Made by a program: the position numbers and the translations under genes. The notes beneath the pieces were generated by a model, which saw nothing but the letters and a program-made list of their open reading frames with translations, ran no database searches and was not told where the DNA came from. DNA of 37,318 nucleotides, taken from the NCBI GenBank assembly GCA_036000645.1, contig DASYVA010000034.1:1-37318 (forward strand), read 5' to 3'. Positions 2,915 through 36,015 of the stretch are shown in pieces; the first letter of the stretch is position 1, and each line of letters begins with the position of its first letter. The stretch is from Candidatus Methylomirabilis sp. GTDB taxonomy: Bacteria; Methylomirabilota; Methylomirabilia; Methylomirabilales; JACPAU01.

Positions 2915-3023
2915 GGGACATTACACGTCAGGGACCGGAAAGCGAGGATCGAGAACAGCCCAACCGGGACCGGGATATGTCCGGAAGGTTTCACGGGGGC
3001 GGAGGGGCGAGAGAGGGGGAGCC

Positions 3024-4286
3024 ATGGGCCTGACACTGGCCGAGAAAATCCTCTCGCGGCGGCTCAAGCGGGAGGTCCACGCGGGGGATATCGTGGTCGC
3101 GGATGTGGACATGGCCACCGTCCAGGATGGGACGGGCGTCCTCACCTTCGACATGATCCGCGAGCTCATGGGCAAGGACATGGTCAAGTACCCGAATCGC
3201 GCCATGCTGGTCCTGGACCACATGGGGCCCGCCGCCCGGCCCGAGTACAGCAACATGCACCGGCGCCTCCGGGAGTTCGCGGCCAACACCGGCGCCATCC
3301 TGGAGGACGTAGGCTCCGGCATCAGCCACCTGCTCCTCGCCGAGAAGTACGTGAAGCCGGGGGACATCGTGGTGGGGGCGGACTCCCACACCAGCACGGC
3401 GGCGGGGCTGGCCGCCTTCGCCACGGGGATGGGCTCCACCGACGTCGCCATCGCCATGGCCCTGGGGAAGACCTGGTTCCGGGTCCCGGAGACGATGCGC
3501 TTCGTCCTCAAGGGGAAGCTCCAGCCCGGGGTCTCCTCCAAGGACATCATCCTCCACATCATCGGGCAGATCGGGGAGGACGGCGCGGCGTACAAGGCGA
3601 TGGAGTACGCGGGGGACACCGTCCCCACCCTCTCCATGGACGCCCGGCTCACCATGACCAGCATGGCCCAGGAGGCCGGGGCGAAGCTGGGCCTCTTCCC
3701 CTCCGACGAGCAGACCCGCGCCTTCCTGGCCCAGCAGGGGCGGGAGAAGGACTGGCAGCCTCTCGCCGCCGATCCCGACGCCACCTACGAGCAGACCCTG
3801 GAGATTGACGTGGGCCGGCTGGAGCCGCTGGTGTGCGTCCCCCACACGCCGGGCAACGTGAAGCCGATCAGCGAGGTGGCGAAAGAGGGAATCCACGTGG
3901 ATCAGGTGTTCCTCGGGACCTGCACCAATGGGCGGCTCGAGGACCTGCGGGCGGCGGCCGGGATCCTCAAGGGGAAGCGCGTGGCGGCGGGGACCCGGTT
4001 CCTCGTGTACCCGGGGTCGCGGGGCGTGTACCAGCGGGCGCTGGCGGAGGGCCTGGTGGCGACGTTCGTGGAGGCGGGCGCGGTCTTCGGGTCTCCCGCC
4101 TGCGGCCCCTGCCCCGGCTGGCAGTTCGGGCTGCTCGGGGACGGGGAGGTCTGCCTGGCCACGCAGAATCGGAACTTCAAGGGGCGGCTCGGGAACCCCA
4201 AGTCGTTCGTCTATCTCTCCTCACCGGCCGTCGCGGCGGCGTCGGCCATCGCGGGGAAGATCGTGGACCCGCGGCCCTATCTGTAG
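3024..4286 (+). CDS. leuC: 3-isopropylmalate dehydratase large subunit family (aconitase superfamily)
   Basis: This 420-residue protein is the length of the archaeal-type LeuC subfamily. The ATG at 3024 follows a GAGAGGGGGAG ribosome binding site. The three cysteines that bind the 4Fe-4S cluster are visible: C300 in GTCTNGR, and C360 and C363 in ACGPCPG. Active-site segments such as VGADSHTST (about 118-126) are present. It should act with the small subunit encoded 8 bases downstream in a stereospecific hydration/dehydration of a branched dicarboxylic acid: isopropylmalate in leucine synthesis, homocitrate/homoaconitate in lysine synthesis, or dimethylmalate in nicotinate breakdown. No leuA or leuB lies nearby, so the leucine role is the default call and is not proven. 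Confidence 0.85.
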   Translation: MGLTLAEKILSRRLKREVHAGDIVVADVDMATVQDGTGVLTFDMIRELMGKDMVKYPNRAMLVLDHMGPAARPEYSNMHRRLREFAANTGAILEDVGSGISHLLLAEKYVKPGDIVVGADSHTSTAAGLAAFATGMGSTDVAIAMALGKTWFRVPETMRFVLKGKLQPGVSSKDIILHIIGQIGEDGAAYKAMEYAGDTVPTLSMDARLTMTSMAQEAGAKLGLFPSDEQTRAFLAQQGREKDWQPLAADPDATYEQTLEIDVGRLEPLVCVPHTPGNVKPISEVAKEGIHVDQVFLGTCTNGRLEDLRAAAGILKGKRVAAGTRFLVYPGSRGVYQRALAEGLVATFVEAGAVFGSPACGPCPGWQFGLLGDGEVCLATQNRNFKGRLGNPKSFVYLSSPAVAAASAIAGKIVDPRPYL

Positions 4287-4294
4287 GAGGTGCT

Positions 4295-4804
4295 ATGGGC
4301 ATCCGGGGAGTCGCCTGGAAGTTCGGAGATTTCATCTCGACCGACCTGATTGCGCCGGGCCGCTACGCCCATCTCCGGTCGGACCTGCCCAAGCTGGCGG
4401 AGCACGTCCTCGAGGATGCCGATGCGAACTTCGCCCCGGCCACCATGAAGAAGGACACGACCTACATCGTGGTGGCGGGCCGCAACTTCGGCCAGGGCTC
4501 CTCCCGGGAGCACGCGGCCCGGATCATCAAGCTGGCGGGGGTGCCCGTGGTGCTGGCCAAGTCCTTTGCCCGGATCTTCTACCGCAACGCCTTCAACATC
4601 GGGATGCCGGCCCTGACGCTGGACACCGACCGGATCGCCCAGGGGGACGAGCTGGAGGTGGACCTGAAGCGAAGCCTGGTCCGAAATCTGACGAAGGGGC
4701 AGGAGTTCCGCGTGGGGGCGATTCCGGAAGTGATGCTGGCCATCCTGGAGCACGGCGGGATCGTCGAGTTCGTCCGCAAGCACGGGGACCTGGTGTTCAA
4801 GTAA
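4295..4804 (+). CDS. leuD: 3-isopropylmalate dehydratase small subunit family
   Basis: This 169-residue protein is the swivel-domain partner of the preceding large subunit. Its AGGAGGTG ribosome binding site overlaps the leuC-like stop codon, which indicates tight co-translation. It has the DLIAPGR opening motif and the conserved GSSREHAA substrate-binding motif at residues 68-75. The loop after the opening motif reads RYAHLRSD (about 23-30) instead of the YLRT-type loop I associate with isopropylmalate isomerases or the YLVM/HACN types reported for homoaconitases, so the substrate is uncertain. The pair ends at a strong hairpin at 4829-4858. Confidence 0.83.
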   Translation: MGIRGVAWKFGDFISTDLIAPGRYAHLRSDLPKLAEHVLEDADANFAPATMKKDTTYIVVAGRNFGQGSSREHAARIIKLAGVPVVLAKSFARIFYRNAFNIGMPALTLDTDRIAQGDELEVDLKRSLVRNLTKGQEFRVGAIPEVMLAILEHGGIVEFVRKHGDLVFK

Positions 4805-4828
4805 AGAGCCAGCACGCCCAAACGCATC

Positions 4829-4858
4829 GGGCCCCGCCGGGACTTCCCGGCGGGGCCC
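4829..4858. terminator. 13-bp GC hairpin shared by convergent genes
   Basis: A perfect 13-base-pair stem (4829-4841 with 4846-4858) and an ACTT loop lie between the stops of the leuD-like gene and the convergent small secreted-protein gene. It lacks a T run on either side, so it may act weakly or bidirectionally. It is homologous to the hairpin at 5365-5396, with two base pairs changed in a compensating way (C-G to T-A). Confidence 0.7.
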
Positions 4859-4878
4859 GTGCTGTTCAGGCCTCGTGC

Positions 4879-5190
4879 TTATTTGATCTCGGAGCCCCGG
4901 TACTCCAGGACGGGCGGGATCTCCCGGCTCGCCCCCGCCCCCGGGCCAGCCGCGAGGGTCGCCTCAGCCGCTGCCTGGGCGGACCACTGGATGAGCTCCC
5001 GAACCTCCTGCTCCAGGAGGCCATGGATCTCCGCGGCGGGCGCCACCGGGCGGGCCGACTGCGGCGCCTGGGCGGAAAACTCGAACAGCTTCTGCAGCTC
5101 CCGATCCTGGAGGGTCCCGCCGTCCGCGACGGCGGTTCCCGCGAACGCCACTGTTGCCACCAGCAGACCGAATGCGACAAGCTTCTTCAT
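4879..5190 (-). CDS. small secreted protein, tandem paralogue A (103 aa)
   Basis: The ATG at 5190 starts MKKLVAFGLL, a classic signal peptide cleaved near residue 22, and is preceded by a GGAGGA ribosome binding site. The mature part begins DGGTLQDRELQKLFEFSAQ and ends LEYRGSEIK. Both blocks match paralogue B (5416-5604). Paralogue A carries about 40 extra residues that include EVRELIQWSAQ, which resembles its own ELQKLFEFSAQ, so the motif appears duplicated internally. There are no Cys and no membrane segment after the signal peptide. It is probably periplasmic or exported. I do not recognise the family. The promoter region, leader and terminator are all shared with B. Confidence 0.7.
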   Translation of the reverse strand: MKKLVAFGLLVATVAFAGTAVADGGTLQDRELQKLFEFSAQAPQSARPVAPAAEIHGLLEQEVRELIQWSAQAAAEATLAAGPGAGASREIPPVLEYRGSEIK

Positions 5191-5208
5191 GATGACTGCA
5201 TTCCTCCC

Positions 5209-5222
5209 TGCCCCGTAGGGCA
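5209..5222 (-). promoter_or_regulatory. leader hairpin beside the ribosome binding site, copy A
   Basis: TGCCC (5209-5213) pairs with GGGCA (5218-5222) across a four-base loop, immediately upstream of the GGAGGAA ribosome binding site at 5201-5207. The same hairpin position recurs in copy B at 5621-5632. It could tune translation, but the stem is short. Confidence 0.35.
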
Positions 5223-5265
5223 TGCGGTATTTCATCCCTGTTTCACCGTACTCTGCTTACCCGAT

Positions 5266-5293
5266 CCCGCGGCCGCATCTCCCATATAGATGC
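5266..5293 (-). promoter_or_regulatory. GCGGCCGC/TATAG repeated upstream element, copy 1
   Basis: Read on the minus strand, this element has a CTATAT core about 96 bases before the ATG of paralogue A, followed by the palindrome GCGGCCGC (5269-5276). It is one base shorter than the copies at 5677-5705 and 35293-35321, with otherwise similar order and spacing. The core may be a -10 box and the palindrome an operator or an early-leader site; this assignment is inferred. Confidence 0.5.
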
Positions 5294-5356
5294 CCCGACC
5301 GCGAAAACGATGCACGCCGGATCCCGCGTCCCCTCCGAGGAAGCCTGCGTGACCCT

Positions 5357-5396
5357 AAAAAACTCGGGTCCCGTCGGGGATTCCCGACGGGACCCG
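5357..5396 (-). terminator. intrinsic terminator of paralogue B
   Basis: A 14-base-pair stem (5365-5378 with 5383-5396, loop GATT) is followed on the minus strand by six T residues (5362-5357). It sits 20 bases after the stop codon of paralogue B and just before the promoter region of paralogue A, so it separates the two tandem units. Confidence 0.85.
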
Positions 5397-5415
5397 TACT
5401 GTTCGGCTGCCGCGC

Positions 5416-5604
5416 CTAGTTGATGCCGGAGCCCTGGTACTCCAGGGCCGCCGCCACCGGGCTGGCCGGCTTCGCCACCTGGGCCGACCACTCGAAGAGC
5501 TTCTGCAGCTCCCGATCCTGCAAGGTCCCGCCGTCGCCGGCGAAGGCCGCCCCGCTGAACGCCACCGTGGCCGCCAGCAGGCCGAACGCGATGAGCTTCT
5601 TCAT
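5416..5604 (-). CDS. small secreted protein, tandem paralogue B (62 aa)
   Basis: The ATG at 5604 starts MKKLIAFGLLAATVAF, a signal peptide cleaved near residue 22, after a GGAGGGA ribosome binding site. The mature product is only about 40 residues. It contains GDGGTLQDRELQKLFEWSAQ and ends LEYQGSGIN, nearly the same as the start and end of paralogue A. The gene has its own upstream element (5677-5705), leader hairpin (5621-5632) and terminator (5357-5396), so it is a complete transcription unit. Conservation of signal peptide, motif and C-terminus between the copies argues that it is translated. The function is unknown; it might be an exported peptide or a small periplasmic factor. Confidence 0.7.
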   Translation of the reverse strand: MKKLIAFGLLAATVAFSGAAFAGDGGTLQDRELQKLFEWSAQVAKPASPVAAALEYQGSGIN

Positions 5605-5620
5605 GACCTGGTCCCTCCGT

Positions 5621-5632
5621 GCCCCGCAGGGC
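5621..5632 (-). promoter_or_regulatory. leader hairpin beside the ribosome binding site, copy B
   Basis: GCCC (5621-5624) pairs with GGGC (5629-5632) across CGCA, two bases upstream of the GGAGGGA ribosome binding site. Position and sequence match the hairpin of copy A. Confidence 0.35.
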
Positions 5633-5676
5633 GCTTTGTGTTCCATCCCCGTTTCATTTCCTGCTCTGCTCTCGAT

Positions 5677-5705
5677 CCCGCGGCCGCGTCTGCCCCTATA
5701 GATGC
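5677..5705 (-). promoter_or_regulatory. GCGGCCGC/TATAG repeated upstream element, copy 2
   Basis: This 29-base element upstream of paralogue B holds GCGGCCGC (5680-5687), a nine-base spacer and TATAG (5697-5701). It differs at a single base from the copy at 35293-35321, 30 kb away. On the coding strand the TATA core lies about 94 bases before the ATG. Confidence 0.55.
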
Positions 5706-5736
5706 AGCCTCCCCTCCCGGGATCCGCTCCCCACCG

Positions 5737-5772
5737 AAAAAAATCGCGCCTGGCCCCTGGGCCCGGCGCGAG
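5737..5772 (-). terminator. intrinsic terminator of the TRAP transporter operon
   Basis: TCGCGCC (5744-5750) pairs with GGCGCGA (5765-5771), with further GGCC pairing inside the loop. Seven T residues follow on the minus strand (5743-5737). It lies about 32 bases after the stop of the TRAP-propeller gene and closes the long minus-strand gene run. Confidence 0.85.
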
Positions 5773-5803
5773 CAAAAATCCAGCAATTACAGTTGGGCAG
5801 AGG

Positions 5804-8533
5804 TCAGAACGCCCCGACGAACCGGACCACCCGCCCCGCCGCGGTCTCGGCCACATAGAGCCGGCCGGCCGCGTCGAAGGCCGGGTCCCGCGGGCCGGCC
5901 AGCCCCTCGGCCACCACGATCTCCACCCCGCCCGGCTTCAGGCGCCAGACCCGGCCCTCCCCCGGCTCCGCGACGTACACGTCCCCCGAGGGACCGCGGG
6001 CGAGGCCGACGCCCCTGATTCCTTCCCAGAGGGGCCGGTGCTCCCCGTCCGCCGTGACGCGCGAGATCCGCTCCGCCAGGTTTTCCGCCACCAGGATCCC
6101 GCCCCCCGGCTCGAACAGCAGCCCGTGCGCTCCCGCGAGGACGGGACCGAACGGCTCCGCCTCCCCGGGGCCCTCCGCGACCTTGAGCGGCCCCCGGGTG
6201 AACTCGCAGATGATCAAGCGCCCGGCGGAATCGAAGTCCAGGTCCACGGGAGCGGTGAGCCCGCCGACGTACGTGCTCACCGCCCCGTCCGGGGAGACCC
6301 GGGCGATGCGCCCGCGGCGGGTGTCGGCCACGTAGAGGGCGCCCGCCGCGTCTCGGGCGATGTCGTGCGGCCACGACAGGCCCGCCCCGATGCGCGTGAC
6401 GGTCCCGTCGGGCGCAATTCGGGCCAGGGCGTCGCCGGCCTGCTCGGCGGCCAGCACGCTCCCGTCCGGGAGGACGAGGAGCCCGCGGGGCTCCCGCAGC
6501 TCTTCCGCGACGACTTCCATCGGATATGGGGACTTCACCGGGGCCGCACCGGCGCGTGCCGGCGCCAGGAGAGCCGCGAGGAGGAAGACCGCCAGGACCG
6601 GCCCGGCCTTGCGCGGCGGGCGGCGGAGGGCCTGGAGGAGCACGGCGAGCGTGCAAAGCCCGAAGCCGATCAGGTCCTGGAGCCACCCCGGGTACACCAG
6701 CACCAGGCCGGCGGCGACGAGCACGACCTGCTCGAGCAAGCTCGTCTTCCGGAGGAGCCACCCGGTGAGTCCCGCGGCCAGGGCCGCCAGCCCCACCATG
6801 GCGGTCACGGTGGTCCAGAGGATGTTGCCCCAGGGGCCCTTGAGGAGCAGGCCGATGCCGTCCGGGTGCAGCGTGAACATGAAGGGGACGAGGAAGGTGG
6901 GGAGCGTGTACTTCCACGCCATCATCGTCGTCCGGTACGGGTTGCCGCCGGTGATGGCCGCGGCCGCGAACGGGGAGAGCGCCGTGGGCGGCGACACCTC
7001 GGAGAGGACGGCGTAGTAGAAAATAAACATGTGGGCCGCGTACTCCGGCACGCCGAGCCGGATCATCGCCGGCGCCGTGATGACGGCCGCGATGATGTAG
7101 GAGGCGGTCACCGGCACCGCGAGCCCCAGGATCCAGACGGCCAGGGCCGTGTAGAGCACCGTGAGGAACAGCCCACCCCCGGCTAACGTCAGGATGATGA
7201 GGGAGAACTTCAGGCCGAGGCCGGTCAGGGTGACCACGCCGACGATGATCCCCGCCGTGGCGCAGGTGGCGGCGACGGAGAGGACCCCGACGGCCCCACC
7301 CTCCAGGGCGCGGCCCAGGCGCGGAGGGGTCAGGGCGGTTTCGCGCCGCAGAAAGCTCAGCGCGGCGGCGAGGAGCGTCGCGTAGAAGACGGCCAGGATC
7401 GCCGTGTATCCGAAGAGCATGAAGACGACGATCGCGACGAGGGAGAGGAAGTGGAAACCGTACTTGCGCGTGAGGCTCCAGACGTTCTCCCCCGCCACCG
7501 CCACCGGCCGGGCGCCGAACTTCTTCGCGTCCAGCTCGACCATGACGAAGACCGACCAGTAGTAGAGGAGCGTGGGGATCGCCGCCATCGCGATCACGTC
7601 GAGGTAGGAGACCTTGAGGAACTCGGCGATGAGGAAGGCGGCGGCGCCGAGGACCGGCGGCGAGATGATGGCGCCGATGCCCCCGGCGGAGAGCAACCCG
7701 CCGGCCGAGGCCTTGTCGTAGCCGGCCTTCGCCAGGAGCGGCCAGGCCACTGACCCGAGCGTCACCGTCGTCGCCACGCCGGAGCCGGAGGGCCCGCCGA
7801 GGAGGAAGGAAGCCAGCGTCACCGTCCGGCCGGCGGCCGTGGGCTTGCCGCCGGTCGCGGCGAGGGAGAAGTTGACGAAGAACTCGCCGGCACGGGAGTG
7901 CTCGAGGAAAGCCCCGTAGATCGTGAAGAGGATGATGAACGTCGCGGCCACGTCCAGGGGGACGCCGAAGATCCCCTCGAGCGTCGTGTACATGTGCCCG
8001 ACGAGGCGGTCCAGGCCGTAGCCCTGATGGGTCCAGGGCGCCGGCAGCCAGGCTCCGAGCCACGCGTAGGCCAGGAAGGCGATCGCCACGGTCGGGAGGA
8101 TCCACCCCGTCGTCCGCCGGGTGGCCTCCAGGACCAGCAGGATGGTGAGCCCGCCGAAGACCTGATCCCACGTGGTCGGCAGCGCCGCCCGGTAGATGAA
8201 CTCCTCGAAGTCCCAGAGGGGGTAGCCGACGGCGAGGAGGCTCAGGCCCACGAGGAGCCAGTCGGGCCACCCCACCCGCTCCATTCCGCGCTTCCGCCGG
8301 GCGGGGTAGAGCAGGAACGAGAGGACCAGCGTGAAGCCGAGAAAGGACAGGCGCAGGATCTGGGTCGTGACGGTGCCCCAGGCCCAGTAGAGGAAGAGCA
8401 GCGACATGGCGACGGCCACCGCAGAGACGGCCCGTCCCACCGGGCCGGTCAGGCGTCGCCGGGGTCCCTCCTCGGCCTCCACCAACTCCAGTGCGGCGGA
8501 GACCCGTGAGGGATCGATCAGGTCATCGGGCAC
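5804..8533 (-). CDS. TRAP transporter 4TM/12TM permease (TAXI type) fused to a six-bladed beta-propeller
   Basis: This is a 909-residue protein. Residues 1 to about 650 match the fused DctQ-DctM permeases that work with TAXI receptors: an N-terminal four-helix part, then a large multi-helix part with family segments such as FLLGGPSGSGVATTVTLGS and SEVSPPTALSPFAAAAITGGNP. A signal-peptide-like hydrophobic stretch follows at about 640-663 (VLAVFLLAALLAPARAGAA). Then come six repeats of about 40 residues, each with an NHL-like core such as AAGALYVADTRRGRIARVSPDG, forming a whole six-bladed propeller to the end. The GTG start at 8533 has a GGGGAGGA site and overlaps the DUF1850 stop. The propeller would lie in the periplasm. 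The fusion is unusual to me; it may sense or bind substrate, or be a merged neighbouring gene. Confidence 0.88.
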   Translation of the reverse strand: MPDDLIDPSRVSAALELVEAEEGPRRRLTGPVGRAVSAVAVAMSLLFLYWAWGTVTTQILRLSFLGFTLVLSFLLYPARRKRGMERVGWPDWLLVGLSLLAVGYPLWDFEEFIYRAALPTTWDQVFGGLTILLVLEATRRTTGWILPTVAIAFLAYAWLGAWLPAPWTHQGYGLDRLVGHMYTTLEGIFGVPLDVAATFIILFTIYGAFLEHSRAGEFFVNFSLAATGGKPTAAGRTVTLASFLLGGPSGSGVATTVTLGSVAWPLLAKAGYDKASAGGLLSAGGIGAIISPPVLGAAAFLIAEFLKVSYLDVIAMAAIPTLLYYWSVFVMVELDAKKFGARPVAVAGENVWSLTRKYGFHFLSLVAIVVFMLFGYTAILAVFYATLLAAALSFLRRETALTPPRLGRALEGGAVGVLSVAATCATAGIIVGVVTLTGLGLKFSLIILTLAGGGLFLTVLYTALAVWILGLAVPVTASYIIAAVITAPAMIRLGVPEYAAHMFIFYYAVLSEVSPPTALSPFAAAAITGGNPYRTTMMAWKYTLPTFLVPFMFTLHPDGIGLLLKGPWGNILWTTVTAMVGLAALAAGLTGWLLRKTSLLEQVVLVAAGLVLVYPGWLQDLIGFGLCTLAVLLQALRRPPRKAGPVLAVFLLAALLAPARAGAAPVKSPYPMEVVAEELREPRGLLVLPDGSVLAAEQAGDALARIAPDGTVTRIGAGLSWPHDIARDAAGALYVADTRRGRIARVSPDGAVSTYVGGLTAPVDLDFDSAGRLIICEFTRGPLKVAEGPGEAEPFGPVLAGAHGLLFEPGGGILVAENLAERISRVTADGEHRPLWEGIRGVGLARGPSGDVYVAEPGEGRVWRLKPGGVEIVVAEGLAGPRDPAFDAAGRLYVAETAAGRVVRFVGAF

Positions 8534-18220: not shown

Positions 18221-19342
18221 TCAGAGCGTCACGAGAAACTCGGCGAGGGTCCGAAGCTCCTGCTCCGAGAGATGGCGGTACGCGGGCATCCGGGCGCCGG
18301 GGATCACCGCGGCCGGCTCCTTCAGGAAGCGGACGTGCCAGGCGACGTCACGCCCTCCGCTCCGCGTTCGGCCGGCGAGGTCCGGGGCCATCTGGCCGCC
18401 GACCCCCCGGACGGCATGGCAGCCCCCGCAGCCCTTCTCCCAGAAGAGGCGCTCGCCGGGGTGGGCCGCGGCTTCCCTCGCCCGCGGGGCGGCCGCAGAG
18501 GTCCCGGGGACCGGCGGGCCGGCCCCGGAGGCCGGACCGGAGCCGATCCGGGCCAGCAGTTCGCGGGCAGCCTGAACGGTCGGGTCATCGGGCGTCAGGG
18601 ATCCCGGTTCGGGCGCAGGCGCTCCAGCGAGGGGGGGCGGGGCGGCTGCCGGGCGGCGTTCCTGCAGGCTGCGTGCCTCCGCCATCATCTCCCGGACCCG
18701 GGCGGCATCCTCCGGTCCCGGGGCCACCTTGAGGAATTGCTCCCAGGTCCTGATGGCGCCGGCGCTATCCCCAAGGAGGGTGGCCTGGACTTGTGCCTTG
18801 TCCCAGAGGGCGTGGGCGCTTCGCGGGTCTCCCTTCAGCGCACGATCGAGCGAGCGCAGCGCCTCCTCCCCGTGGCCTCCGCGGAGGAGGATGGTCCCCA
18901 TGTGCATGAGGGCATCGGGGTTCTCCGGTTCCCGGCGGAGAACTTCTTGATACAGGGTGATCGCCTCGGCGAAGCGGCCCGTATCCAGGTAGAGGTGGGC
19001 CAGGGCCAGGCGGGTGGGGGTCTCGTGCGGGTTCAGCGCAAGGCGCGCCTTCAGGTCTGCGATTCGGGCCGAGGTGTCGGCGGATGGCCCGGCCCCCGCC
19101 TGGTCTCCGGGGTTGGCCGTCCGGGTCTCTTCAGGAACGGCTTCCTGCAGGCCGGGCGGAGGCCCGCCCGTCGGGCTGTTCCAACGGGTCACCAGAAGGC
19201 CGAGCCCGAACCCCACGAGGAGAAGCCCGAGGGCAAGTCCTCCCCAGGTGAGCCACGGGGGGATGCTCCCGGAGCCCGGCCCCCCCGCCCCTGGCACGAT
19301 CGCGGGGCGCCGGCTCGCCCGCTCCTTTCTCCCTCTCGCCAT
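18221..19342 (-). CDS. membrane-anchored TPR protein fused to a c-type cytochrome domain
   Basis: This is a 373-residue protein. The ATG at 19342 follows GGGGAAGGGGGAGGG; the open frame further upstream is antisense to the peptidase gene and is not coding. After a short basic cytosolic stretch comes one membrane helix (GGLALGLLLVGFGLGLLVT). About three TPR repeats follow at roughly 95-205 (LALAHLYLDTGRFAEAITLYQEVL is one, with LNPH and EPENPDA turns). A Pro/Ala linker leads to a cytochrome c domain with CGGCH at 305-309 and a probable axial Met352 in RMPAY. The heme domain would be periplasmic. The TPR part resembles cytochrome-maturation TPR proteins, so it may tether an electron-transfer partner. 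Confidence 0.85.
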   Translation of the reverse strand: MARGRKERASRRPAIVPGAGGPGSGSIPPWLTWGGLALGLLLVGFGLGLLVTRWNSPTGGPPPGLQEAVPEETRTANPGDQAGAGPSADTSARIADLKARLALNPHETPTRLALAHLYLDTGRFAEAITLYQEVLRREPENPDALMHMGTILLRGGHGEEALRSLDRALKGDPRSAHALWDKAQVQATLLGDSAGAIRTWEQFLKVAPGPEDAARVREMMAEARSLQERRPAAAPPPLAGAPAPEPGSLTPDDPTVQAARELLARIGSGPASGAGPPVPGTSAAAPRAREAAAHPGERLFWEKGCGGCHAVRGVGGQMAPDLAGRTRSGGRDVAWHVRFLKEPAAVIPGARMPAYRHLSEQELRTLAEFLVTL

Positions 19343-19380
19343 CCCTCCCCCTTCCCCACTCCAAGCGCAAAGACCCCGCG

Positions 19381-19409
19381 AGTATACACCGGCCCCCGAG
19401 GCCGGGCAA
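19381..19409 (-). promoter_or_regulatory. putative sigma70-type promoter of the minus-strand run
   Basis: On the minus strand TTGCCC (19409-19404), 17 bases and TATACT (19386-19381) fit a sigma70-type promoter with four of six -35 and five of six -10 matches. The transcript would start near 19374, giving a leader of about 30 bases with a strong ribosome binding site before ATG 19342. Confidence 0.6.
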
Positions 19410-19426
19410 CGCGGCCACTCCTGCCG

Positions 19427-19455
19427 TTGACACGTTCCCCGCTCTCGCCTAGCAT
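19427..19455 (+). promoter_or_regulatory. putative sigma70-type promoter of the plus-strand run
   Basis: A consensus TTGACA (19427-19432), exactly 17 bases and TAGCAT (19450-19455) form a plausible promoter. The predicted transcription start near 19462 is only 4-13 bases before the candidate ATGs of the M28 peptidase, so the mRNA would have almost no leader. Confidence 0.6.
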
Positions 19456-19465
19456 CGCCTGCGGG

Positions 19466-21334
19466 ATGCGGTGCATGCCTGTCACGTCCCGGATCGTCGC
19501 TCTCCTCGTCATCCTGCCCCTGGCCGGCTGCGCCGGCGGCAGCTCCCACCTGGCCGCCCACTGGTCGCCGGCGGCGGAGGCCCTCCTCGATCCCGCCGGC
19601 CTGCTGCGCCACGTGGAGGCGCTCGCCGCCCCGGCCATGGAGGGGCGGGCCTCGGGCACGCCCGGGGGGGAGCGGGCCGCCGCCTACATCGCCGCCGAGT
19701 TCGCTCGAGCCGGCTTGAGCCCCGCCGGGGAGGCCGGAGGCTATCTCCAACCCTTCGAGGTGGTGACGGGGATCCGCCCGGGTCCCGGCAACGCCCTCCT
19801 GTTCGACGGCCTGCCGGCTCCCCTCCCGGGACCGCCCGCCCTCGGCCGCGACTACGTCCCTCTCTCCTTTTCGGCCGAGGGGACCGTGGAGGGGGAAGTC
19901 CTCTTTGCCGGGTACGGGATCACGGCCCCCGAGCTCGGCTACGATGATTACGCCGGGCAGGATGCCACCGGCAAGGTCGTCCTGGTCATGAGCCACGAGC
20001 CGCGCGAGCGGGACGAGGCCGGCCCGTTCCGCCGCCCGGAGGCGTACCGCTACACGGAGCCCCGCACCAAGGTGATCAACGCCCGGGAGCACGGCGCCGC
20101 CGCCGTCCTGCTGGTCCGGGACCCGAACAACCACGGGGACGAGCCGGAGGAGCTGATCGGGCTGCGGGGCGCCTCCTCGTCCCGTTCGAGCCTGCTCGCC
20201 GTGAACATTACCGCGGCGCTCGCCGACCGCCTCCTGGGCGCTTCCGGGACGCGACTGGCCGACCTGCAGGCGGCCATTGACGCCGCCCTGGCCCCCCGAT
20301 CGTTCCCGCTGCCGGGAGTCCGCGCCCGCCTCGGCGTGGACCTCATCCGGGACAAGGGGCGGACGGCCAACGTGGTCGGTCTCCTGCGGGGCCGCGATCC
20401 CGCCCTCCGGGAGACGGCGGTCGTCCTGGGCGCCCACTACGATCACCTGGGCCGGGGGGGTGAAGCGTCGCTGGCCCCGTCGGCCTTCGGGGTGATCCAC
20501 CCGGGGGCGGATGACAACGCCTCCGGGACCGCCGTCGTGATCGGACTGGCCCGGGCCTTCGCCGCCGCCGGCGGCGCGGCACGGACTCTGATCTTCGCCG
20601 CCTTCGCCGGCGAGGAGATGGGCCTCCTTGGCTCCTCGTTCTACACCAAGCAGCCTCCCATCCCCCTGGAGCGGACGGTCGCCATGCTGAACCTGGACAT
20701 GGTCGGGCGGCTGCGCGATGGGAAGATTCTGGTCGCCGGCGTGGAGACGGCCGGGGAGTGGCCCGGGATCCTCCGGGCGGCGGCCCGGGGGCTTCCCCTC
20801 ACGCTGGTGATGCGCGGGGACGGCTACGGTCCCTCGGACCACACCGCCTTCGCGCTGCGCGAGCGGCCGGTCCTCTTCTTCTTCACCGGCCCGCACAGCG
20901 ACTACCACCGCCCGAGCGACACCCCCGAGAAGATCGACGCGGCGGGACTGCAGCAGGTGGCGACGCTGGTGTACCGGACGGCGGCCGCGCTGGCCGGCGA
21001 GCCCGCGGCTCCCGCTTTCGTCCGGGCGAGCGGCCGGCCCCCTGCCGCCGGGGACGGGCGGGGGTACGGCCCCTACTTCGGCTCGATCCCGGACTTCGGC
21101 GCGAGCGAGGTCGAGGGCGTGATGCTCGGCGGGGTGCGCCCCGGGAGCCCGGCGGAGCGCGCGGGGCTCCGGGCGGGAGACACCATCATCCGGTTTGCCG
21201 GGGTCCGAATCACAAACCTGGAGGACCTGGCCTATGCCCTGCGCGCGAAGCGGGCGGGGGACACGGTGCAGGTCATTTACCGGCGCGATGGCGAGGAGCG
21301 CGCGATCCGCGCCACCCTCGAGCGCCGGCAGTAG
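19466..21334 (+). CDS. M28-family aminopeptidase lipoprotein with PA and PDZ domains
   Basis: This protein is 622 residues from ATG 19466, or 619 from ATG 19475. It opens with a lipoprotein signal peptide and lipobox (LPLAGC). A protease-associated domain spans about 130-290 (EVLFAGYGITAPELGYDDYAG). The M28 catalytic domain follows, with zinc ligands in AHYDHLG, HPGADDNASGT, AGEEMGLLGS, LNLDMVG and a late GPHSDYH. A PDZ domain near the end contains GGVRPGSPAERAGLRAGD and GDTVQVIYRRDG. It is probably anchored in the periplasm and trims N-terminal residues from peptides. No Shine-Dalgarno sequence precedes either start, which agrees with the promoter lying only bases upstream. The next gene begins 19 bases after the stop. 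Confidence 0.9.
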   Translation: MRCMPVTSRIVALLVILPLAGCAGGSSHLAAHWSPAAEALLDPAGLLRHVEALAAPAMEGRASGTPGGERAAAYIAAEFARAGLSPAGEAGGYLQPFEVVTGIRPGPGNALLFDGLPAPLPGPPALGRDYVPLSFSAEGTVEGEVLFAGYGITAPELGYDDYAGQDATGKVVLVMSHEPRERDEAGPFRRPEAYRYTEPRTKVINAREHGAAAVLLVRDPNNHGDEPEELIGLRGASSSRSSLLAVNITAALADRLLGASGTRLADLQAAIDAALAPRSFPLPGVRARLGVDLIRDKGRTANVVGLLRGRDPALRETAVVLGAHYDHLGRGGEASLAPSAFGVIHPGADDNASGTAVVIGLARAFAAAGGAARTLIFAAFAGEEMGLLGSSFYTKQPPIPLERTVAMLNLDMVGRLRDGKILVAGVETAGEWPGILRAAARGLPLTLVMRGDGYGPSDHTAFALRERPVLFFFTGPHSDYHRPSDTPEKIDAAGLQQVATLVYRTAAALAGEPAAPAFVRASGRPPAAGDGRGYGPYFGSIPDFGASEVEGVMLGGVRPGSPAERAGLRAGDTIIRFAGVRITNLEDLAYALRAKRAGDTVQVIYRRDGEERAIRATLERRQ

Positions 21335-21353
21335 GAGGAGGTACGAACGCGCC

Positions 21354-22349
21354 ATGCGACACATCCGGAGCGTTGTGACGGTCGGCCTGTGCTTCCTGAT
21401 GGCCGGAGCCGCGTGGGCCGGCGGGTCGAGCTACGGCATCGCGCCGGGCGCCCGGCCGAACCTCAAGGGGCAGGTGGCCGAGTGGCCGGTCCCCACCCCC
21501 GAGTTCGCGCGCGATCCGGCCCCCGGGCCGGACGGCAGTATCTACATCGCCGTGATGCACGGGAACAAGATCGCGCGGTTCGACCCCCGCGCGAAGACCT
21601 TCAAGGAGTGGGATCTGCCGGAGGGGGCCAGGCCCCACGGCCTCCTCGTGGATCCGCGCGGCCAGGTCTATTACACGGGCAACGGCAACGGCACCATCGG
21701 CCAGCTCGACCCGGTCACGGGCAAGGTCGTCGAGCACAAGGCCCCCTCGGGCGGCGGCCCCCATACGCTCGTCCTCGACGGTGGGAGCATCATCTGGTTC
21801 ACGGTGCAGGGCGGCAACCGGATCGGCCGGCTGGACACGCGGACCGGGGCGATCACCGAGTTCAAGACGGCGGGCAGCCCCTACGGGATCGCGCTCGACA
21901 AGGCGGGCAACGTCTGGTTCTGCCTGATCAGCGCGGGGAAGCTCGGGAAGCTCGACCCGAAGACCGGCACGATCACGGAGCTCGTGCTGGAGCGGGGCTC
22001 CCAGCCGCGCCGGATGGCCGTCGCTCCGGACGGCTCGCTCTGGGTCACCCTCTACGGCAAGGGCTCGCTGCTCCGCGTGGATCCCGCCGCCGGCAAGGTG
22101 GTCAAGGAGTACCCGCTCCCGGCAGGCCCTGACGGGGGCCCCTACGCCGTCACCGTGGACGGGGCCGGGTTCGTGTGGGCCAATGAGATTGCCACCGATA
22201 CGGTCGTTCGGCTCGACCCGAGAACGGAGCAGATCCGGGTCGTCCCGCTCCCCTCGAAACGGGTGGGCATCCGGAAGATGATCGTGGACGCCGAGGGGCG
22301 GCTCTGGTACATGGGCAGCCACAACGGGCGCCTCGGCGTCATCGAGTAG
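21354..22349 (+). CDS. secreted virginiamycin-B-lyase-like beta-propeller
   Basis: This 331-residue protein has a signal peptide (VVTVGLCFLMAGAAWA) and seven-bladed Vgb/streptogramin-lyase-type repeats. Typical cores are HGLLVDPRGQVYYTGNGNGT, IIWFTVQGGNRIGRLD and GNVWFCLISAGKLGKLD, each about 42 residues. The family includes virginiamycin B lyases and many periplasmic propellers of unknown role. Antibiotic inactivation should not be assumed here. The AGGAGGAGG site abuts the peptidase stop codon. It is the second gene of the plus-strand run and distantly resembles the propeller fused to the TRAP permease. Confidence 0.85.
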   Translation: MRHIRSVVTVGLCFLMAGAAWAGGSSYGIAPGARPNLKGQVAEWPVPTPEFARDPAPGPDGSIYIAVMHGNKIARFDPRAKTFKEWDLPEGARPHGLLVDPRGQVYYTGNGNGTIGQLDPVTGKVVEHKAPSGGGPHTLVLDGGSIIWFTVQGGNRIGRLDTRTGAITEFKTAGSPYGIALDKAGNVWFCLISAGKLGKLDPKTGTITELVLERGSQPRRMAVAPDGSLWVTLYGKGSLLRVDPAAGKVVKEYPLPAGPDGGPYAVTVDGAGFVWANEIATDTVVRLDPRTEQIRVVPLPSKRVGIRKMIVDAEGRLWYMGSHNGRLGVIE

Positions 22350-33969: not shown

Positions 33970-35253
33970 TCAGTAGGCCGCCGCCTCCTCGGGGGCAAGG
34001 CGGGCGGGCCGTCCCTCCCGGATCAACAGGCTGAGCCCGGCGGCCACGAAGGCGAGGACCGCCGCGGAGAGGAACGCCAGGGCGTAGGAGCCGGTCGCGT
34101 CGAAGATCCAGCCCCCGACCCACGCCCCCGCCGCCGCCCCCACCTGATGGCTCAGGAAGATCCAACCGAAGAGGACACCCACCGAGAACCGCCCGAAGAG
34201 GTCGGCCGTGAGGGTGGAGGTGGGGGGGACAGTCGCGATGTAGTTCAGGCCGAAGAGGACGGCCCAGACGTTCAGGGATACGGGCGTGTCCACCGTGATC
34301 AGGTACAGGATGGAGACCCCGCGGAAGAAGTAGAAGCAGGCCAGCGGAACCTTCTTGCCGAAGCGGTCGCAGAGGTAGCCGGAGGCGAGCGTCCCCACCA
34401 CGTTCATGGCCCCCATGAGGCCGATCGCCGCCGCCGCCGTCATCTCCCCCAGCCCCCGGTCTACGGCGTACGGGACCACGTGCGTCCCGATCATCCCGTT
34501 GCTCGTGTAGCCGCAGACGAAGAACCCCCCCGCCAGATACCAGAAGTCGGCGGACCGGATCGCCTCCCTCACCGCCGTCCGTCGCTCGGGCGCGAGAGCG
34601 GCTCCGGCTGCGCGCCCGGCGGGAGCGGGAGCCGCGGCCCCGTAGGGGCGGAGTCCCTTCTCCCCCGGGTCGTCCCGCAGGAGCCACATGGTGAGGGGAG
34701 CCACCAGGAACACCAGGATCGCCCCGAGCCAGACGAAGGATTGCCGCCAGCCCAACTGGAGCGTGAGGCCCATGGCGAGCGGGATGAAGAGGAGCTGCCC
34801 GGCGGAGGTCCCGGCCCCCGCGATCCCCATCATGAGGGCGCGCCGCTGCTCGAACCAGCGGGCGGCGATCGCGGACGCCGTGACGATGGCGGCCCCGCCC
34901 GCTCCCACCGCCGTGAAGATCCCCGCCCACAGGTACAGATGCCAGAGCCGCGTGACGGTGGCCGAGAGGAGCGCCCCCGCGCCGCAGAGCAGGACGCTCA
35001 GCGCCAATACGCGCCGCGGGCCGTAGCGGTCCACCAGGCGCCCGATGAAGGGCCCGATGGCGCCGTAGATCAGGAGCGAGAACGCGGCGGCGAGGGCGAT
35101 GGCGCCCCGCTCCCACCCGAAGTCGCGCTCGAGGGGTTTGATGAAGACCCCGAAGGACGACCGGACGCCCGAGGCGGCCAGCAGGGCGAGGAAGGTGACC
35201 CCCGCGACCACCCAGGCGTAGTGCAGGCGCCCGCCGTGACTGTTCGTCGGCAT
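33970..35253 (-). CDS. MFS transporter (monocarboxylate/oxalate-formate antiporter-like)
   Basis: This 427-residue transporter has twelve hydrophobic segments and a central cytosolic loop rich in Ala, Pro and charged residues near 200-230. The start YAWVVAGVTFLALLAASGVRSSFGVFIKPLERDFGW is typical of the OFA-like MFS group that carries carboxylates. The motif GRLVDRYGPRRV sits in the loop after helix 2. ATG 35253 follows a GGAGCGAGAG site. It lies downstream of the TenA gene, but its own repeated upstream element (35293-35321) suggests a separate promoter. The substrate is unknown. Confidence 0.87.
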   Translation of the reverse strand: MPTNSHGGRLHYAWVVAGVTFLALLAASGVRSSFGVFIKPLERDFGWERGAIALAAAFSLLIYGAIGPFIGRLVDRYGPRRVLALSVLLCGAGALLSATVTRLWHLYLWAGIFTAVGAGGAAIVTASAIAARWFEQRRALMMGIAGAGTSAGQLLFIPLAMGLTLQLGWRQSFVWLGAILVFLVAPLTMWLLRDDPGEKGLRPYGAAAPAPAGRAAGAALAPERRTAVREAIRSADFWYLAGGFFVCGYTSNGMIGTHVVPYAVDRGLGEMTAAAAIGLMGAMNVVGTLASGYLCDRFGKKVPLACFYFFRGVSILYLITVDTPVSLNVWAVLFGLNYIATVPPTSTLTADLFGRFSVGVLFGWIFLSHQVGAAAGAWVGGWIFDATGSYALAFLSAAVLAFVAAGLSLLIREGRPARLAPEEAAAY

Positions 35254-35292
35254 CGTTCTCTCGCTCCAGGTGGGCGCAGCGACCCGTCCGTC

Positions 35293-35321
35293 CCCGCGGC
35301 CGCGTTTGCCCCTATAGATGC
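35293..35321 (-). promoter_or_regulatory. GCGGCCGC/TATAG repeated upstream element, copy 3
   Basis: This 29-base element matches copy 2 (5677-5705) at 28 positions, including GCGGCCGC (35296-35303), the nine-base spacer and TATAG (35313-35317). It lies in the gap between the TenA stop and the MFS ATG at 35253, in the same orientation relative to the gene as copies 1 and 2. The TATA core is about 60 bases before the ATG. Confidence 0.55.
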
Positions 35322-35346
35322 CCCGGATCCAAATTCGATGCGCCCC

Positions 35347-36015
35347 CTACAGGGGCCAGCGCTCCATCCGGTAGGACATGTCCCAGAACCCGTACTCGTA
35401 GCGGCTGCTGGTCATGAAGTGGCGGCGCATGCGGTCCCGCTCGGCCCGCCCCGCCCCCTCCGCCAGGCGGTCGGTGAGGCCCCGGAGCCAGCGCGCCAGC
35501 TTGCCGAAGTCGGCGCTGCTGTAGGTCCGGATCCAGTCCCCGTAGGGGTTGGCCCGGCCGCCCCGCTGCCCCTTCGCGAGGACGGTGCCCAGCTCCCAGT
35601 ATCCCCACTGGCAGGGCAGGAGCGCGGCGCACAGCTCCGCGAGGGTGCCGGAGGCCGCCACGTGGAGGAGATGCCGGGTGTAGGCGTGCGCGGTGGGGGC
35701 GGGGACGGTCCGCTCCAGGGCCGCCGGGCTCACGCCGAAGCGCCGCGCGGAGCGCCGATGCAGATCCATCTCGGTGTGCAAGGTCGCGTGGAGGAGGGCG
35801 GCGAACTCCCCCATGGTCTGCAGGTCCTCCGCTCGAGCCACCGCGAGGGCCAGGACCCGGCTGTACTCCACCAGGAAGACGTAATCCTGGCAGAGGTAGA
35901 ACCGGAAGCGCCGCCTCGTGAGACGGCCGCTCCCGATCCCCCGGACGAAGGGATGCGCGGCGATCTTCCGCCAGATGGGATCCGCCTTCCGCCGCAGCTC
36001 CGCCGTGAAGGCCAT
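35347..36015 (-). CDS. tenA: TenA-family thiaminase II/aminopyrimidine aminohydrolase
   Basis: This 222-residue all-helical protein has catalytic residues at the positions known for Bacillus TenA: D44 in CQDYVFL, nucleophile C135 in LLPCQWGYWELG, and the late Glu (E207) in SSRYEYGFWDMSY. TenA hydrolyses aminopyrimidines from degraded thiamine, or thiamine itself, to give the HMP moiety for salvage. MFS genes flank it on both sides on the same strand, which would fit uptake of a pyrimidine. No TPP riboswitch is visible nearby. The start follows GGGAGGACGG. Confidence 0.87.
   Translation of the reverse strand: MAFTAELRRKADPIWRKIAAHPFVRGIGSGRLTRRRFRFYLCQDYVFLVEYSRVLALAVARAEDLQTMGEFAALLHATLHTEMDLHRRSARRFGVSPAALERTVPAPTAHAYTRHLLHVAASGTLAELCAALLPCQWGYWELGTVLAKGQRGGRANPYGDWIRTYSSADFGKLARWLRGLTDRLAEGAGRAERDRMRRHFMTSSRYEYGFWDMSYRMERWPL

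Follow-up and report, generated by a model that had tools for sequence, protein, structure and literature searches.

A bipartite, candidate non-housekeeping promoter element of small exported-protein genes, also found before an MFS transporter gene, in Candidatus Methylomirabilis

What kind of element is a 29-base repeat that recurs upstream of an MFS transporter gene and of genes for small proteins? Within the window, by which we mean the whole stretch of 37,318 nucleotides analysed, a recount confirmed the report of an earlier note that the copies at 5677-5705 and 35293-35321, about 30 kb apart, agree at 28 of 29 bases, and the third copy that it described is present on the minus strand at 5266-5293 (GCATCTATATGGGAGATGCGGCCGCGGG), with a one-base deletion. 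As also claimed, all three copies have the same orientation before minus-strand genes, and CTATA stands 97 nt ahead of the ATG at 5604, 99 nt ahead of that at 5190 and 64 nt ahead of that at 35253. Chance is excluded as the origin of the repeat, because a 19-base pattern allowing up to three mismatches gave a mean of 0.05 hits in the window over 100 shuffles and because only about 0.05 matches at 14-15 of the 15 fixed positions of GCATC-N15-GCATCTATAG are expected per genome. While the repeat is real, its extent had been drawn too short: a GCATC box (GGATC in copy 34a) located exactly 15 nt upstream belongs to it too, giving a bipartite unit, GCATC-N15-GCATCTATAGGGGCANACGCGGC, that is longer than 29 bases and reads GCATC, 15 nt, GCATCTATAGGGGCANACGCGGCCGC on the minus strand. 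The whole genome, a Methylomirabilales (NC10) MAG of 2.67 Mb in 239 contigs, contains exactly four copies of this element, all in sense orientation and 64-99 nt ahead of a start codon (Table 1). Three of the four precede paralogous genes for small exported proteins, two in tandem in the window and one on contig C95, and the remaining copy precedes the MFS gene downstream of tenA. The two small-protein genes of the window, previously described as distant, are tandem paralogues that lie next to each other, separated by about 410 bp.

Table 1. Coordinates of the element copies and of neighbouring features (positions refer to the window unless a contig is named)
Feature	Position	Strand	Remarks
Element copy 34a	5680..5725	-	GGATC (5721-5725), 15 nt, core GCATCTATAGGGGCAGACGCGGCCGC (5680-5705)
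Element copy 34b	5269..5313	-	GCATC (5309-5313), 15 nt, core GCATCTATATGGGAGATGCGGCCGC; one base missing after the -10-like box
Element copy before MFS gene	35296..35341	-	GCATC (35337-35341), 15 nt, core GCATCTATAGGGGCAAACGCGGCCGC
Element copy on C95	C95:4568-4613		Before the third small-protein paralogue
Orthologous copies of the 34a element	G003 C151:2906-2956; G002 C93:227-255		G002 copy truncated after CTATA
Small exported protein 34a, 62 aa	5416..5604	-	Signal peptide and GDGGTLQDRELQKLFEWSAQ...LEYQGSGIN
Tandem paralogue 34b, 103 aa	4879..5190	-	LFEFSAQ motif repeated internally
Intrinsic terminator between 34a and the 34b element	5365..5396	-	14-pair stem, T tract
MFS transporter	33970..35253	-	Best NCBIfam resemblance SfMCT (L-lactate MFS), below its cut-off
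TenA (thiaminase II family)	35347..36015	-	Directly upstream of the MFS gene, same strand
Segment of ~110 bp with most of the MFS element copy	35227..35338	-	Absent from the G003 tenA-MFS junction

Comparison of the copies with one another and with the orthologous loci of two sister species, G003 (Ca. Methylomirabilota PMV_7_maxbin.006) and G002, separated the constant from the variable parts of the element. G003 comes from a Movile Cave sediment sample, one for which Methylomirabilales MAGs have been reported (PMC9386943). For GCATC-N15-GCATCTATA, the 15-nt spacing is constant in 34a (with GGATC), 34b, C95, the MFS copy, G003 contig C151 and G002 contig C93. The spacers themselves are of two unrelated types, one in 34a, G003 and G002 and the other in 34b, C95 and the MFS copy, with 1-5 of 15 positions identical between types and 8-12 of 15 within them, and the boxes are intact throughout. 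Between 34a and its orthologous G003 locus the stretch GCATCTATAGGGGCAGACGCGGC is identical, and the 70 nt of leader that follow give no convincing alignment. In G002 (L084, C93 227-255) the boxes remain at a locus that has lost the small gene through a deletion running from immediately behind CTATA to a point shortly ahead of the terminator. Boxes and spacing are thus preserved at the orthologous loci of both sister species while spacers and leaders diverge, which points to selection on the boxes and core. Two short boxes at a fixed distance around a free spacer have the look of a -35/-10-like promoter or of paired protein-binding sites. The same comparison bears on the proposal that the element is a residue of duplication, in which the small genes were copied together with their upstream DNA and the MFS gene received its copy by chance, with no regulatory role. 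That three of the four copies precede paralogues and that G003 does without the MFS copy would suit such a history; we regard it as improbable, given that spacers and leaders have fallen to chance-level similarity between types and species with boxes and core unchanged. The G003 paralogue on contig C330 lacks the element. A separate inverted repeat, GCCCTNYGGGGCACGGAGG, lies just before the ribosome-binding site (5612-5634 and 5205-5227; L070 ~4650-4680; L072 ~3020-3050) and is common to 34a, 34b, C95 and the element-less C330 gene but absent from G003 C151, where the element is present; this different distribution suggests that promoter and leader evolve separately.

Background statistics were taken from a sample of about 464 kb of the genome, in which gene calls are approximate. 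In the sense upstream regions of this sample, TTGACA-N16-18-TANNNT was counted 12 times versus 0.00 in shuffles, and TTGACA alone 27 times versus 2.9; the housekeeping consensus here is clearly the ordinary TTGACA-N16-18-TANNNT. The element matches neither TTGACA nor TANNNT, no housekeeping-type TTGACA/TANNNT site lies within 4700-6000, and the best housekeeping scores before the four genes, 7-8, are of the usual size for upstream regions in the sample. What the element shares with housekeeping sigma-70/sigma-A promoters is a distance of about 18-19 nt between box positions and TATA in the downstream box; it departs from them at both consensus hexamers, although this genome's own promoters show both. 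From this mismatch we infer the action of an alternative sigma factor or of an activator. The earlier proposal of an alternative-sigma promoter with an operator therefore stands in part: position, orientation, fixed spacing and cross-species conservation bear out a promoter-like, off-consensus element, and its palindromic operator falls away. That palindrome, GCGGCCGC, was rejected as an operator because it is too frequent (~290 per Mb), shows no enrichment ahead of genes (8 versus 7.65 in shuffles of the 464-kb sample), is altered in the sister species, where its position reads GCGGCTGT in G003, and falls outside the conserved footprint. Its presence, together with a position upstream of start codons, could also suggest a structured RNA or riboswitch leader, a reading to which we give almost no weight: there is no Rfam match in the window, folding is no better than in shuffles (z -1.6 to +1.5), the palindrome is unconserved, and the conserved boxes reach upstream of the likely start site.

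A different kind of operator would consist of tandem GCATC half-sites 20 bp (two helical turns) apart to which a dimeric regulator binds, overlapping a weak sigma-70 promoter with TATAGG as a poor -10. The GCATC direct repeat does keep a fixed 20-bp periodicity in five of the six copies, whether full or partial, with GGATC instead in 34a, and the entire GCATCTATAGGGGCANACGCGG stretch is conserved, which exceeds the needs of a -10 box. We nevertheless consider this arrangement rather unlikely, as the second half-site is fused with an invariant CTATA that resembles a -10 box, and a good sigma-70 site was not found near the element.

The genes downstream of three of the copies encode a family of its own. 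The 34a, 34b and C95 products are paralogues of 62-103 aa, each with a signal peptide followed by (G)DGGTLQDRELQKLFEWSAQ or similar, a variable Pro/Ala/Gly-rich middle and a C-terminus like LEYRGSDIK. Neither Pfam nor NCBIfam gave a match for them, and the sole hit in a search of solved structures was insignificant (E=0.88). Among 95 genomes of the class, the family is present only in the window's genome and G003, with no relatives outside the genus. Family members lie at 4879-5604 in the window and at L070 4688-4912, L071 3024-3251 and L072 2762-3013; copy number differs between the species, and the mature N-terminus and the C-terminus are conserved. The tandem genes face an aconitase/LeuC-like gene and the single G003 copy faces aconitase-family genes. 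Element copies 34a, 34b and G003 C151 each come after a terminator-like hairpin of the preceding gene, and the terminator between 34a and 34b suggests that each small gene forms its own transcription unit. Three copies before paralogues do not count as independent evidence; paralogy accounts for these three and for most of the sharing, and the MFS copy alone is surprising. Elsewhere in the window, a large protein encoded at 18221-21364 on the minus strand combines a cytochrome c domain at the C-terminus with TPR repeats in the C-terminal third.

How the element came to stand before the MFS gene was examined at the tenA-MFS junction. The MFS copy is 85% identical to the C95 copy over 55 bp (E=8e-12), and their spacers agree at 10 of 15 positions, for which P = 0.0007 for a random intergenic 15-mer, uncorrected for the few comparisons made. 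This spacer match makes descent from a paralogue's promoter more likely than convergence, and the MFS gene has thus probably captured the promoter of a C95/34b-type paralogue. In G003, the MFS orthologue (86% identical) directly follows the tenA stop and has no element; G001 carries tenA without an MFS gene in that position, and the contig of G002 breaks off within the MFS gene. The segment missing from G003 is bounded by GGGCGC repeats (35339-35344 and 35227-35232), which could be read as a target-site duplication left by a mobile, promoter-carrying repeat of REP/MITE type inserted before the MFS gene, an option that the earlier note had raised. However, the genome has only four copies, three of them at homologous paralogue promoters and none elsewhere, the similarity between the MFS and C95 copies stops within about 55 bp and not at the ends of the segment, and terminal repeats are lacking. 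Furthermore, MFS orthologues outside the genus have, as read by eye, 6-12 residues before a conserved (L/I)H-x-(A/G)WVV motif, and the G003 protein lacks this N-terminal tail, so that an insertion in the window's genome is no more likely than a deletion in G003 between the GGGCGC repeats. The element is short and intergenic like REP/MITE repeats but differs from them in its four copies, missing terminal inverted repeats, single gene-relative orientation and conservation at orthologous loci, and we consider the mobile-repeat option very improbable.

Beyond these four genes, a wider regulon was not detected: near matches at 12-13 of the 15 positions occur at chance frequency and are not clearly enriched upstream of genes. 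The small regulon suggested by the earlier note comes down to four genes in one genus, three of them paralogues, so that descent explains most of the sharing. GCATCTATAG occurs only at the known copies and on G003 contig C404 (L152 2438-2467), where a site matches at 14 of 15 positions with the exact 15-nt spacing and precedes a possible 25-aa hydrophobic ORF (MFLDGVTATVAFILLAVLAVLLAEV); as it is antisense within a DivIVA-domain ORF, this site is kept as no more than a lead. Sites in the window's own genome on contigs C134 (13/15) and C53 (12/15) were rejected as further members, being within chance expectation. The C53 site (L095 1501-1800) lies 31-40 nt before the gene for a zf-HC2 zinc-finger protein, a type that occurs in anti-sigma factors. 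When 84,980 species were scanned with a 17-base core, the only matches were in G003 and in two unrelated genomes, Thermosporothrix and Acidovorax, whose dissimilar surroundings suggest that these matches are probably due to chance.

Taken together, we favour, with a probability of roughly 0.6, the reading that the element is a non-housekeeping promoter region of the genus-restricted small exported-protein genes that has also been copied to the MFS gene. GCATC would serve as the -35-like box and CTATA within GCATCTATA as the -10-like box, with transcription predicted to start in GGGGCANACGCGGC, just downstream of the latter. The element would not be read by the housekeeping sigma factor alone, and either an alternative sigma factor directly or a regulator acting on the paired GCATC boxes may be responsible. 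Gene duplication would have carried the element to the small-protein paralogues, and one copy, probably derived from a C95/34b-type promoter, may have come to lie between tenA and the MFS gene, giving the latter its own promoter and placing it under the same control. With alternative-sigma-type promoters the element shares two boxes at fixed spacing, a place upstream of starts in sense and conservation in orthologues; no sigma factor or regulator linked to it was found.

Among known systems, the nearest published motif is the -10 element of E. coli sigma-38 (RpoS), CTAtacT with no distinctive -35 box, which shares with the element a C before TATA and the lack of TTGACA (PMC3923258). The element differs in that its CTATAGGG lacks the final T and in that a second conserved box stands upstream at a fixed distance, and its CTATAGG or CTATATG matches CTATACT only at CTATA. 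Outside Proteobacteria, RpoS itself is not expected to occur. Promoters of ECF sigma factors are bipartite with fixed spacing and serve small regulons; the element resembles them in its two short boxes, rigid spacing, few targets and exported or membrane-protein products, and is unlike them in having no AAC-type -35 motif and no linked ECF sigma gene. A broader formulation, in which GCATC-N15-GCATCTATA is a previously undescribed promoter class of Methylomirabilota (NC10) that is read by an alternative sigma factor, drives the genus-restricted exported small-protein genes and was taken over by a transporter gene in a very small, recently evolving regulon, is possible, and we put it forward only tentatively. 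We see in it a minor control element of local reach rather than a new type of system.

A full-text literature search returned no paper in which Methylomirabil- occurs together with promoter, sigma factor and transcription start, so that little appears to be available on NC10 promoters. Against this background, the element offers one well-defined non-housekeeping motif with a clear target list, contrasted with the housekeeping consensus of the same genome. The orphan family of exported proteins whose genes it precedes is confined to a single genus, and the MFS copy serves as a modest example of how a regulon may gain an unrelated member when that gene takes over the promoter of another.
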